Part shown: piece after piece, positions 3,858 to 25,856 of the stretch
How the letters are laid out: each line of letters starts with the position of its first letter
Numbering within the stretch: the stretch's first letter is position 1
Assembly (NCBI RefSeq): GCF_020405205.1
Contig: NZ_CP084470.1
Location: 1-64,000, forward strand
Source: Natrinema salinisoli
Lineage (GTDB): Archaea > Halobacteriota > Halobacteria > Halobacteriales > Natrialbaceae
DNA: 64,000 nt
Reading direction: 5' to 3'
The notes under the pieces: generated by a model
Databases searched by the model: none
What the model was told of the DNA's origin: nothing
The model's input: only the letters and a program-made list of their open reading frames with translations
Position numbers and translations under genes: made by a program

Positions 3858-4997
3858 GTGAAATCCGAATCGACGTCGGTCGCCGACCCGCTCGAGGAAT
3901 TCCTTCGATCGAAATCGAAGGGCGGTGAGGGAAGCGGGAACTACCGACGAAACCTCGAACGCTGTATCGAGGACTTCCTCGAGTGGCTCGAGGCAGATCC
4001 CCAATCGGGGGAAACGTTCGATGACCTGGACGCACGAACGTTCCGTCGGTACGCTCGTGAGCTCACGGGACGGGATCTCGCGCCGGGAACGGTACAGACG
4101 TACTACGCACAGGTCAGTGCCTACGTCGGCTGGTGCGTTCGGGAAGGGCTCCTCGAGGCGAACTACGCACAGCGCAACGTCGCGAAGGAACCGCTTCCGG
4201 AAAACGACGGACGTCGATCAGGGGATCAGCAGGCCTGGACCGACGAACACCGGCTGTTGATAACCCGTTACGTCGATACACGTGCTCACGATGCTGCCGA
4301 CGAGAAGGGGCTGGGTGCGATCAAAGAGTTCCGTGACCGAGCGCTCGTCTACGTCCTGTGTTACTCCGGTGTCCGTGGTGGTGAAATCTTCGCGGACCCG
4401 AAAGACGATCGCCGTAATGGGCTCCAGTGGGGTGACGTCTCCTTCGAAGACCGGAAGATGACTGTCCTCTCGAAGAAACAAGACTGGTCCGATCGTTCGC
4501 TGACTGAGCAGGCCATAAATCCTATGCGACGATACAAAGATTTGCTCAGTCCCGCCACCGATGACTGGCCGGTATTTCCGACGTTTCACCTTCCAACGCT
4601 CTACGAGACCCTTCGAACGGGACTCCGGACCGAACACGGGTGGTCAGAAGGAAAAACCGAGACGTTCGTCGATGATCTCACTGGTCAACGCGAGGTGTTC
4701 GAGGCCCTTCGGGAGTACGAACTGGCTCCTCCCTCGATCAACACTGATGGGGCTCGTCGGATCATGCGACGGCTTTGTGAGGACGCAGATCTTGACCTCG
4801 AGGGGAAACACGGGTATCTCGCCCCACACGGTGGCAGGCGTGGAGCTGGCGAGGTGATGGTTCGGCAACGCGGCTTTACCGCCGCTGCTCGACTCTTGGA
4901 CAATAGCGAAGCAGTCGTGCGAAAATCGTACTCCCATATCGAAGCGAAAGAGATGGCCAAAGACGCCGGCGATGCGTTTACCGAACACGACTCGTGA
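3858..4997 (+). CDS. tyrosine recombinase/integrase (phage integrase family)
   Basis: This 379-aa site-specific recombinase has an N-terminal SAM-like core-binding domain (about residues 10-110) and a C-terminal catalytic domain. Catalytic residues can be placed: Arg173 in YSGVRGGE, a Lys near 206-207, His324 and Arg327 in APHGGRR, and Tyr358 in VRKSYSHIEA. The start is a GTG. It would cut and rejoin DNA for integration, excision or dimer resolution. No tRNA gene or obvious att duplication was seen beside it. Together with the ParA locus it marks the left end as replicon or mobile DNA. Confidence 0.92.
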   Translation: MKSESTSVADPLEEFLRSKSKGGEGSGNYRRNLERCIEDFLEWLEADPQSGETFDDLDARTFRRYARELTGRDLAPGTVQTYYAQVSAYVGWCVREGLLEANYAQRNVAKEPLPENDGRRSGDQQAWTDEHRLLITRYVDTRAHDAADEKGLGAIKEFRDRALVYVLCYSGVRGGEIFADPKDDRRNGLQWGDVSFEDRKMTVLSKKQDWSDRSLTEQAINPMRRYKDLLSPATDDWPVFPTFHLPTLYETLRTGLRTEHGWSEGKTETFVDDLTGQREVFEALREYELAPPSINTDGARRIMRRLCEDADLDLEGKHGYLAPHGGRRGAGEVMVRQRGFTAAARLLDNSEAVVRKSYSHIEAKEMAKDAGDAFTEHDS

Positions 4998-22813: not shown

Positions 22814-22820
22814 TTTATAA
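22814..22820 (+). promoter_or_regulatory. TATA box of rdfA
   Basis: TTTATAA is centred about 24 nt before the ATG at 22841. It supports that leaderless start and excludes the longer frame from 22733, which would read through the promoter. Confidence 0.6.
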
Positions 22821-22840: not shown

Positions 22841-23425
22841 ATGAGTGAGTATGGTTGTAAAGTCTGCCGAGTATTAGATGAGTACGGAATGGAGCGCTAC
22901 GAGGAGCAACTACTCGAGCAGTGGCAAGCAGACGCCTCTCAGCGGAAGGGATATCGGCAACTCGCTGAGTGGTTCAATACGCTCATGTTGCGCCGCGAGA
23001 TGGACCGTGCGGGCCTTTCGACGCTCGGCGACGAAGCGGAGTCCAAGTACGAGCGGTTGCAGTCGGACGAGGCGGTCGCAGCGGAGGTCGCGACAGAATT
23101 AGAAAATGCAGGGATTCCGATTAATACACTACGGGACGATTTCGTTTCGTACGGTGTGATTCGGACACATCTGAAGGAGTGTCTCGAGTCCGATGTCGAT
23201 CTTTCGAGCGGGGACTGGGAACAGAACGCGATCGAGATCTCACGGGACCATGCAACCACGAAAATTGAAGAGGCAGTCCGATCGCTCCGAAACAAGGGGC
23301 AGCTCACCGCCGGTGGTGACGTGAGTATTTCAGTTACTGTCGAACTCGAATGCGAGAACTGTCACGCCCGCGTTCCTTTCGATCGGGCGCTCCGTCGCGA
23401 ATACATCTGCCGTTGTGATGATTAA
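22841..23425 (+). CDS. rdfA: rod-determining factor RdfA-like protein
   Basis: This 194-aa haloarchaeal protein matches the RdfA family as I recall it (MSEYGCKVCRVLDEYG start, C-terminal zinc-ribbon-like end). Cysteines sit at residues 6 and 9, and at 171, 174, 190 and 192 (CENCHARVPFDRA, then YICRC), suggesting a metal site. In Haloferax volcanii RdfA promotes the rod cell shape. The gene is 2 nt from an SMC-related gene, an association recurring in haloarchaea. This is probably a paralogue rather than the main chromosomal copy. Confidence 0.82.
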   Translation: MSEYGCKVCRVLDEYGMERYEEQLLEQWQADASQRKGYRQLAEWFNTLMLRREMDRAGLSTLGDEAESKYERLQSDEAVAAEVATELENAGIPINTLRDDFVSYGVIRTHLKECLESDVDLSSGDWEQNAIEISRDHATTKIEEAVRSLRNKGQLTAGGDVSISVTVELECENCHARVPFDRALRREYICRCDD

Positions 23426-23427
23426 CC

Positions 23428-25281
23428 ATGACTGACCGAACACTTCACCTTGAACTCGAGAATATTGGCGGCATCGAACACGAAGAGCTATCGATTACTG
23501 CGGGACCCACGTTCATCCAGGGTCCAAACGCCGCGAACAAGAGCTCGTTCCTCAAGGGACTGCTCTTCGCACTCGGGAGTACGACGGTTCCGATCCGAAG
23601 CGGGGCCGACGAGGCTCGGGCGGTGCTTTCGTCCGAGGAAAAACGCGTCGAGCGAACCGCTCGACGGACCGACGCCGGTATCGAGACGGCCGGCGAGGCG
23701 TGGATCACGGATCCCGACGAGATCACGCTTCTCGAGCGGTTCGCGGGTCTGTTGGAGACGAATTCACTCAGAAGCGCCGTCACTCGGAACGAAGACATCG
23801 AATCGCTCCTGAAGGAGCCGATGGACATAGAAGCACTCGAAGAGGAGCAAGCGTCGAAGATGGCTCGAAAGCGGGAGCTCACGACGGAGATCGAGTCGGC
23901 CGGTGACGTCGACGAGCGCCTCGAGGACCGAAAACGGGAACGTACCGAGAAACGGAACCGTCTCGACGAACTCGAGTCGACGCTTGAGGAACTGTACGAT
24001 GAGCAGGACACCACCGATACCGACACTGACGATGTCGTCCAAGAATTGCGAGACGAACGAGCCGATCTACGGTCGGACGAAACCGAGTGCGAAACTCAGA
24101 TAAACCAGCTCGAAGCTGCTATCGATCGCCTCGAAGGGCGACGGGACGAGATCGAAGACGAGCTCGAGGACGCTCGTGACGCCGTCGATGAGAACGATGT
24201 CGAATCCCTCAAACAGAAACGCGAGTCCGCTCGGTCCGAACTCGACGATGTGACGAAGCGTCTCGACGTATTGCAGTCGGTCCTCACCGCGAATCGTGAG
24301 ATGGTCGATTCCGAGTTTACGGGGGTACTCGGTCGCGATACGGGATTGATGGGCGACGAAGTGACCTGCTGGACGTGTGGCCGATCAGCACCGGTCGAGG
24401 AACTCGAGGAAACGATTGAGGATCTGACGGCACTCGTCAAGGAAGACAAACGCCGAAAGCGAGAAAGAGAACCGGAGATCGAGGCGCTTACCGAACAGAT
24501 CGAGGAAGTTCAACGCTCGAAAACGGAAATACAGCAGCTCGAAGCGGAGAAACAGGACGTTGAGCAGAAGCTAACGAACCGTCGTGACTCCCTCGAGGAA
24601 CGACGTGACCAGCTAGAGGCGATTCGCGATCAACTCTCCGAACTCGACGACGAAATCGCCGATCAGGCGGCCGACCAGCGCTCTGAGCAGTCGGAGCTCA
24701 CCGACGAAATCGAAGAGACACGAGTCGAAACAGAGACGCTTCGACGGGAGATCACGCGACTCGAGGAGACCATCGATTCCCTCCGCGAAACCCGCGAAGA
24801 ACTGGAACGCAAACGAGAGAAGATCGACCAACTCTCCAACGAGATCTCCGCTTTGACCGATCGGATCGAAAACCTCGAAAGCGAACTCCGAGCGGTGTTC
24901 AACGAGACGATGGACGAATTGCTGGACGCGCTCGAATTCGAACGGATCGAACGTGTCTGGCTCGACGGGGAGTTCGAACTCGTGATCGCTCGGGAAGTCG
25001 ATGGTCGAACACAATCGGATTCGATCGAACATCTCGCTGAGAGTGAACGGGAAATGATCGGCCTCGTCCTCGCACTCGCCGGATTCGTCACGTACGATGT
25101 TGACGCCGTGACACCGGTACTGGTTCTAGACTCACTGGGTGCGTTCGACGCGGAACGGACTCGCCGATTGGTCGATTATTTCGCCGACGAAACCGAGTAT
25201 CTGATCGCGACGGCCCATCCGGAATCGACCGTCGATACCGCGTTTGATACCGTGACGTTCAAGCCACCAGTACAGAACTGA
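23428..25281 (+). CDS. archaea-specific SMC-related ATPase with a zinc-hook CXXC
   Basis: This 617-aa Rad50/SMC-like protein has an N-terminal ATPase lobe with an unusual Walker A (GPNAANKS, residues 32-39). A long coiled coil follows from about 120 to 500, interrupted by CWTCG (Cys314, Cys317), resembling a Rad50 zinc hook. The C-terminal lobe has ESEREMIGLVLALA (signature-like) and Walker B LVLDSLGAFD (Asp568), then a TAHPE switch. At 617 aa it is shorter than true SMC or Rad50. It is coupled to rdfA and probably acts with it; the partner role is inference. Confidence 0.88.
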   Translation: MTDRTLHLELENIGGIEHEELSITAGPTFIQGPNAANKSSFLKGLLFALGSTTVPIRSGADEARAVLSSEEKRVERTARRTDAGIETAGEAWITDPDEITLLERFAGLLETNSLRSAVTRNEDIESLLKEPMDIEALEEEQASKMARKRELTTEIESAGDVDERLEDRKRERTEKRNRLDELESTLEELYDEQDTTDTDTDDVVQELRDERADLRSDETECETQINQLEAAIDRLEGRRDEIEDELEDARDAVDENDVESLKQKRESARSELDDVTKRLDVLQSVLTANREMVDSEFTGVLGRDTGLMGDEVTCWTCGRSAPVEELEETIEDLTALVKEDKRRKREREPEIEALTEQIEEVQRSKTEIQQLEAEKQDVEQKLTNRRDSLEERRDQLEAIRDQLSELDDEIADQAADQRSEQSELTDEIEETRVETETLRREITRLEETIDSLRETREELERKREKIDQLSNEISALTDRIENLESELRAVFNETMDELLDALEFERIERVWLDGEFELVIAREVDGRTQSDSIEHLAESEREMIGLVLALAGFVTYDVDAVTPVLVLDSLGAFDAERTRRLVDYFADETEYLIATAHPESTVDTAFDTVTFKPPVQN

Positions 25282-25370: not shown

Positions 25371-25856
25371 TCAGTAGACTGGTAGGTAATTCCTGATATT
25401 CACAGCGCGGTCTGTTTCGATGAAGTAATCGATTTCAGTCACCGAGTCGAGCGCCCGCATCTGGACGAGGAGGTCGTCGATCTCGGTGTTCGACTTCGCG
25501 GTGGCGATTCCGTACAGGTCGACGGTACCGAACCCTTCGGCGACGAACCAAAAATCCATGTTCGACATCTCCTCGAAGAGGTCTCTTTTCGAATTCGCCT
25601 CGTCGGCGGTTCTGGCCGTGACGAGGACGATTTCCCAGCTGTTGCGTTCCGGCCGGGGTAAAAAGAAACTCGTCATATTCTCGAGCAGCGATGTCACACG
25701 CCGGCGGACACCTTCGCTGCTCAGATCGATATCGTATTCGGTTAACTCATCAGCGATATCCGCATACGGACTCCGTGGATCGTTCGCGAGTATTTCGAGG
25801 ATTCGGCGATCGATCTCGTCAATTTCGAGAAGGTCATCGTCAGAGTGATCCGCCAT
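25371..25856 (-). CDS. Lrp/AsnC-family transcriptional regulator
   Basis: This 161-aa regulator has the N-terminal HTH (IDEIDRRILEILANDPRSPY, then ADIADELTEYDIDLSSEGVR). A C-terminal ligand/oligomerisation domain follows, with the VLVTARTADEANSKRDLFEE and GTVDLYGIATAKS segments. It lies at the border of the acyl-CoA region and may respond to an amino acid or related metabolite. Its targets are not visible. Confidence 0.88.
   Translation of the reverse strand: MADHSDDDLLEIDEIDRRILEILANDPRSPYADIADELTEYDIDLSSEGVRRRVTSLLENMTSFFLPRPERNSWEIVLVTARTADEANSKRDLFEEMSNMDFWFVAEGFGTVDLYGIATAKSNTEIDDLLVQMRALDSVTEIDYFIETDRAVNIRNYLPVY

Follow-up and report, generated by a model that had tools for sequence, protein, structure and literature searches.

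In the window (the whole 64-kb stretch of DNA analysed), the gene for an RdfA protein and the gene for an SMC-related protein of the ASRP/Sph family form a real, non-random pair of an already known kind, which belongs to a distinct plasmid-borne clade and has several unreported family features. As read from sequence comparison, these features are the identical presence and co-divergence of the two families, the apparent loss of the catalytic glutamate, pairs in methanogens, clade-specific regulators and an RdfA for which no fold match was detected. We consider, with a probability of about 0.5, that the pair encodes a bicistronic cognate RdfA-Sph complex, the heads of which would serve as a nucleotide-binding clamp with poor or no ATP hydrolysis, and which would act upon cell shape and DNA.

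Gene pair and replicon

The window opens replicon C2 (400,082 bp) and covers its first 64 kb; the other two replicons of the host are 4.19 Mb and 114 kb. Since C2 is of this size and opens with a ParA-type gene, the location was rightly called plasmid-like in the preliminary description. The two genes lie on the same strand and the gap of 2 nt between them, as described there, was confirmed from the exact reading frames (Table 1). A candidate TATA-like box at about 25 nt before the ATG would fit a leaderless haloarchaeal transcript. Of the five RdfA genes in the host genome, four are paired with its four full ASRPs and one (C1:3428612) is alone. At the start of the replicon (221-1512) the ParA-type gene is accompanied by a 141-aa gene without a family match; several plasmids of haloarchaea also open with parA and a small gene in this order, and in some of them (L029, L035) rdfA-sph comes next.

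Table 1. Features of the rdfA-sph locus, with positions in the window
Feature	Position	Strand	Basis
rdfA, 194 aa, ATG start	22841..23425	+	PF21811, E=5.2e-53; AF2 pLDDT 88
ASRP/Sph, SMC-related protein, 617 aa	23428..25281	+	NF045487; fold best matched by Rad50/SMC heads
Candidate TATA-like box TTTATA, 5' of rdfA ATG	22814..22819	+	Sequence reading
RdfA C-terminal zinc-ribbon-like CxxC...CxC (C171, C174, C190, C192)	23351..23416	+	At least 90% conserved, 52 homologues
ASRP/Sph non-canonical Walker A GPNAANKSS, aa 32-40, Asn for Gly preceding Lys	23521..23547	+	Aligned to Rad50 Walker A
ASRP/Sph zinc hook CWTCG, aa 314-318	24367..24381	+	Middle of coiled coil
ASRP/Sph signature-like LAESEREM (LAESERE, aa 536-542)	25033..25056	+	Sequence motif
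ASRP/Sph Walker B VLVLDSLGAFD	25117..25149	+	Sequence comparison
ASRP/Sph Ser569 at catalytic-Glu position	25132-25134	+	Sequence comparison
Lrp/AsnC-family regulator, convergent with the pair	25371..25856	-	HTH_AsnC, E=5.9e-9

Structure of the two proteins

The RdfA and SMC-like identities proposed from the sequence were both borne out by profile scores above the cut-offs: 180.2 bits for RdfA against PF21811 (gathering cut-off 27), with a full-length match (1-195), and 488.8 bits for the ASRP against NF045487 (curated cut-off 300). The AF2 model of RdfA (pLDDT 88.4) is a helical bundle with a single long helix (125-151) and a C-terminal zinc-ribbon end modelled as ribbon-like strands. It had no fold match in the PDB or among the viral models of BFVD (best E 0.95), and the protein had no sequence match in the PDB. 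Profile searches with RdfA matched neither HTH nor known DNA-binding families, and no similarity to kleisin, KITE or Mre11 proteins was detectable by sequence or fold, which leaves room for a remote kinship. No viral homologues were confirmed.

The model of the window ASRP has an ABC-type head at each end and long helices between them, with the hook midway; its top fold matches were to the heads of Rad50, SMC, Lamassu LmuB and MukB. The unusual Walker A, the CWTCG in the middle of the coil and the signature-like motif noted earlier were all located. A hook CxxC is present in every ASRP clade, and reads CxxCG in the main clades (145 of 146 ungapped pairs). The haloarchaeal Sph clade, which includes the window protein, had a tree support of 95. 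PMC9389158 described ASRPs as a family confined to archaea and having a zinc hook. The ASRP of Natrinema sp. SYSU A 869 (L026:9588-11440) is annotated as two overlapping frames, due to a frameshift or a sequencing error.

Nucleotide-binding site

Canonical SMC and Rad50 heads have the Walker A GxxGxGK[ST], a Walker B with Asp followed by the catalytic Glu (D-E) and the signature LSGG[QE]. The window protein departs from each of these: the second and third Gly are absent from its Walker A, the Walker B has LDS, and the signature reads LAESERE. Among 146 haloarchaeal ASRPs the catalytic-Glu position is occupied by Ser (126), Gly (11), Arg (4), Ala (4) or Gln (1), and by Glu in none; in an hmmsearch alignment this Ser falls on the catalytic, E-to-Q position of a solved Smc head. 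The Walker-A Lys is replaced by Arg in 116 of 147 haloarchaeal proteins, and the preceding Gly is Asn or His in 130 of the alignment, while the Walker-B Asp and the signature Ser are kept in nearly all. The variants follow the clades, with Walker A and Walker B being GxNATNRTS and LLDSLEAID in the main clade, xxNWQGKSS and LLDGLGGL in the Sph1-type clade, and GPNAANKSS and VLVLDSLGAFD in the window clade. Since the altered positions are among the most conserved of the protein (entropy near 0, against a mean of 1.6 bits), they do not represent decay. The host's own Rad50 retains LSGGE and LDEP, and its SMC-type protein GPNGSGKS. Outside the haloarchaea, D-E was found in four of six ASRPs, plus a seventh, and GK in the Walker A of all of the first six. 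Hydrolysis by haloarchaeal Sph proteins is thus predicted to be slow or absent, the loss of Glu alone being no proof of lost hydrolysis. The missing Glu is not commented on in the available part of the text of PMC9389158.

Pairing of RdfA and ASRP in haloarchaea

The preliminary description had made its coupling of the two proteins depend upon their co-occurrence, and RdfA and ASRP were found in the identical 50 of 59 haloarchaeal genomes, with the remaining nine lacking both (hypergeometric 8e-11, for genomes which are not independent). An ASRP gene is located within 1.5 kb of 79 of the 107 RdfA loci in these genomes. By our own estimate for 1-2 ASRP genes per ~3.5 Mb genome, chance would give about 0.1%, so this adjacency is not fortuitous. 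The order is RdfA-ASRP in 44 of these cases and ASRP-RdfA in 16, with 11 convergent and 8 divergent. A separate collection of 80 ASRP loci yielded 64 pairs. Loci without a close partner numbered 28 of 107 for RdfA and 17 of 80 for ASRP; an orphan RdfA and an orphan ASRP sharing one genome could conceivably be hidden cognates. One such orphan RdfA (L002:1468-2082), among the 28 in 59 genomes, is adjoined by an IclR gene and has no ASRP.

Tree distances for RdfA and ASRP were correlated with r=0.857 over 147 pairs, as against 0.567 (sd 0.055, maximum 0.728 over 1000) when partners were swapped within genomes, and the cognate partner was recovered in 50 of 57 cases with 24 expected. Because the agreement exceeds the partner-swap null, stable cognate pairs are favoured, with the proviso that co-inheritance of neighbours would give the same result. 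Residue covariation between RdfA and ASRP, sought as a direct sign of binding, was no greater than in a within-clade swap null (~95 effective sequences) and showed no more than clade structure, for which reason contact prediction at the residue level was dropped. In one assembly (G058:C3) the same pair stands at either end of the contig, at 4517 and 112698 (~108.2 kb apart), which is probably an untrimmed circular overlap.

Window clade and linked regulators

Both trees recover the window clade as monophyletic (support 94 and 93) and separate from the Sph1-type and main clades (labels assigned indirectly); the sister group differs between them. All of its members of known replicon are on plasmids, some of the searches having taken in plasmids only, and of the 38 main-clade pairs in closed genomes 27 are on replicons >1.5 Mb. 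The suggested separate role of this paralogous pair is supported only to the extent that the clade stands apart with good support and has an Lrp/AsnC gene of its own beside it.

This Lrp/AsnC gene adjoins the pair in six of eight window-clade loci, and is also found beside pairs on plasmids of Natrinema, Haloterrigena, Halorussus and Halolamina. It was not near other pairs except for one related locus, and was absent from the controls (20 matched random regions). Main-clade pairs often have an IclR gene within 2 kb. Within this distance of pairs 25 IclR genes were counted (0.80 per 10 kb), compared with 0.04-0.10 per 10 kb beyond 2 kb and three in the 398 kb of the control regions; a model built from one unrelated IclR gave the same count near pairs. 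The host genome has only eight IclR genes, three of which are within ~1 kb of RdfA (G000 C1:3427798, C3:5714, C1:1217896). The adjacent regulator may directly control the pair; many pairs have a one-component regulator of their own, from the IclR or Lrp/AsnC family, through which shape could respond to a metabolic or diffusible signal.

Comparison with known systems

The nearest known system is RdfA-Sph3 (HVO_2174-HVO_2175) of Haloferax volcanii (PMC10869688), with the same two families, order and adjacency; this species likewise has further sph genes borne on plasmids. The window ASRP differs from it in lying outside the main and Sph1-type clades, in its GPNAANKSS and in having an Lrp/AsnC neighbour instead of ddfA. 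Deletion of rdfA or sph3 in H. volcanii gives disks only, and in 24 genomes an SMC-like gene lies next to 42 of the 54 RdfA genes (PMC10869688). The link between RdfA, an SMC-like protein and cell shape in the preliminary description therefore holds as regards the coupling and is not new, having been published with synteny in these 24 genomes; within the RdfA family the need for rod shape has been shown for HVO_2174 only (PMC10869688). Deletion of sph2 gives rods, the opposite of sph3, and sph2 and sph4 could not be deleted together; gene conversion is lowered by each of the four sph deletions and not by deletion of smc (PMC11276520). Both RdfA and Sph3 show a decrease of more than 8-fold with the quorum signal (PMC12240190). 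The accounts of Sph3 differ: in PMC13286277 it promotes plates and its deletion leads to rods, while in PMC10869688 and PMC11276520 the deletion fails to form rods.

As in the ASRP family with coalescin (ClsN) and Sph (PMC9389158), the window protein is a zinc-hook, SMC-related protein above the NF045487 cut-off. That paper reports no consensus among the genes flanking ASRP, whereas in the haloarchaeal branch examined here the neighbours include RdfA, IclR and Lrp/AsnC genes and the nucleotide site is derived. The pair resembles Rad50-Mre11 and SMC-kleisin(-KITE) systems in its SMC-type head and coiled coil, its Rad50-like hook and the nearby gene for a non-SMC partner. It differs from them in the deviating ATPase motifs and in an RdfA without detectable similarity to their partners.

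Proposed function and alternatives

In the proposed complex, Sph would dimerise through the zinc hook with RdfA as its obligate non-SMC partner, and RdfA would contact the Sph head or neck, giving pair specificity. With nucleotide bound, the heads would act as a permanent clamp or a slow switch, not as a fast hydrolysing motor. The complex would organise the nucleoid and/or the cell envelope, so that a change in the dosage or identity of paralogues could shift cell shape, and gene conversion in H. volcanii. The linked regulator would set expression of the pair in response to a metabolite, and the copy on the window plasmid would be an accessory paralogue, expressed under certain conditions. 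More tentatively, haloarchaeal Sph proteins may be SMC-like clamps in which ATP hydrolysis has been permanently abandoned, or almost so, and which, with an obligate RdfA of new fold, constitute ligand-regulated switches of shape and chromosome; plasmid pairs might then let cells gain alternative shape programmes.

RdfA might instead be a DNA- or RNA-binding regulator of the neighbouring sph and no subunit at all, the linkage being that of a regulator with its target. We regard this as rather doubtful. It agrees with the small size and C-terminal zinc ribbon of RdfA, with the existence of orphan RdfA genes, with the many proteins changed in an rdfA deletion (PMC10869688), and with the fact that regulators and targets are typically also adjacent and co-inherited; it is opposed by the lack of an HTH, DNA-binding family or fold match, by the separate IclR or Lrp regulator that often already adjoins the pair, and by the common convergent and tail-to-tail arrangements. 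The view that Sph is an ordinary ATP-hydrolysing DNA machine of the SMC/Rad50 type, with another catalytic residue and with shape as a side effect of a recombination or chromosome role, is unlikely. In no clade is a Glu conserved at the catalytic position or close to it, and the main clade has also lost the P-loop Gly and Lys; both argue against such a machine, despite the Rad50/SMC fold, the nearly invariant Walker-B Asp and signature Ser, and the gene conversion impaired by each of the four sph deletions (PMC11276520).

Two further readings are not supported. A plasmid maintenance or partition module is very improbable: the window replicon does start with a ParA gene and on some plasmids no more than 6 kb separates the pair from parA or orc1/cdc6, but ~2.2 Mb of sequence flanking the 107 RdfA loci contained five Orc1 and about four ParA genes, with no clear excess over genome density, and most main-clade pairs are on the large replicons counted above. 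The link to plasmid origins had been seen on hand-picked plasmids with pairs near the record starts, and was gone in the unselected set of 107 loci. A Lamassu/Wadjet-like defence system is scarcely credible, since the weak PADLOC similarities to LmuB and JetC, both of which are also among the fold matches, are confined to the coiled coil, no defence match was obtained for RdfA, and no nuclease or toxin partner adjoins the pair.

The setting of archaeal cell shape is an open question to which RdfA and Sph offer one of the few genetically supported ways in. The unreported features make the RdfA-Sph mechanism testable, the handles being an ATP site seemingly unable to hydrolyse normally, a seemingly dedicated partner without a fold match, and the linked regulators.

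Methanogen relatives

In two Methanosarcinaceae genomes the gene immediately after an ASRP encodes a divergent RdfA (35.7 and 53.2 bits against PF21811, where the cut-off is 27). A third gene comes next, homologous between the two genomes and beginning with a winged helix. The pair thus predates, or was exchanged with, the haloarchaeal radiation. The ASRPs beside these RdfAs branch just outside the haloarchaeal clade and retain LDE, and such pairs with the catalytic glutamate provide a natural comparison. The third gene could encode a KITE-like third subunit or a regulator; as regards the KITE-like idea, a winged-helix match was obtained for one of the two genes only. The third genes of the two operons (L262:1450-4615 and L277:1034-3603) are 34% identical to each other.
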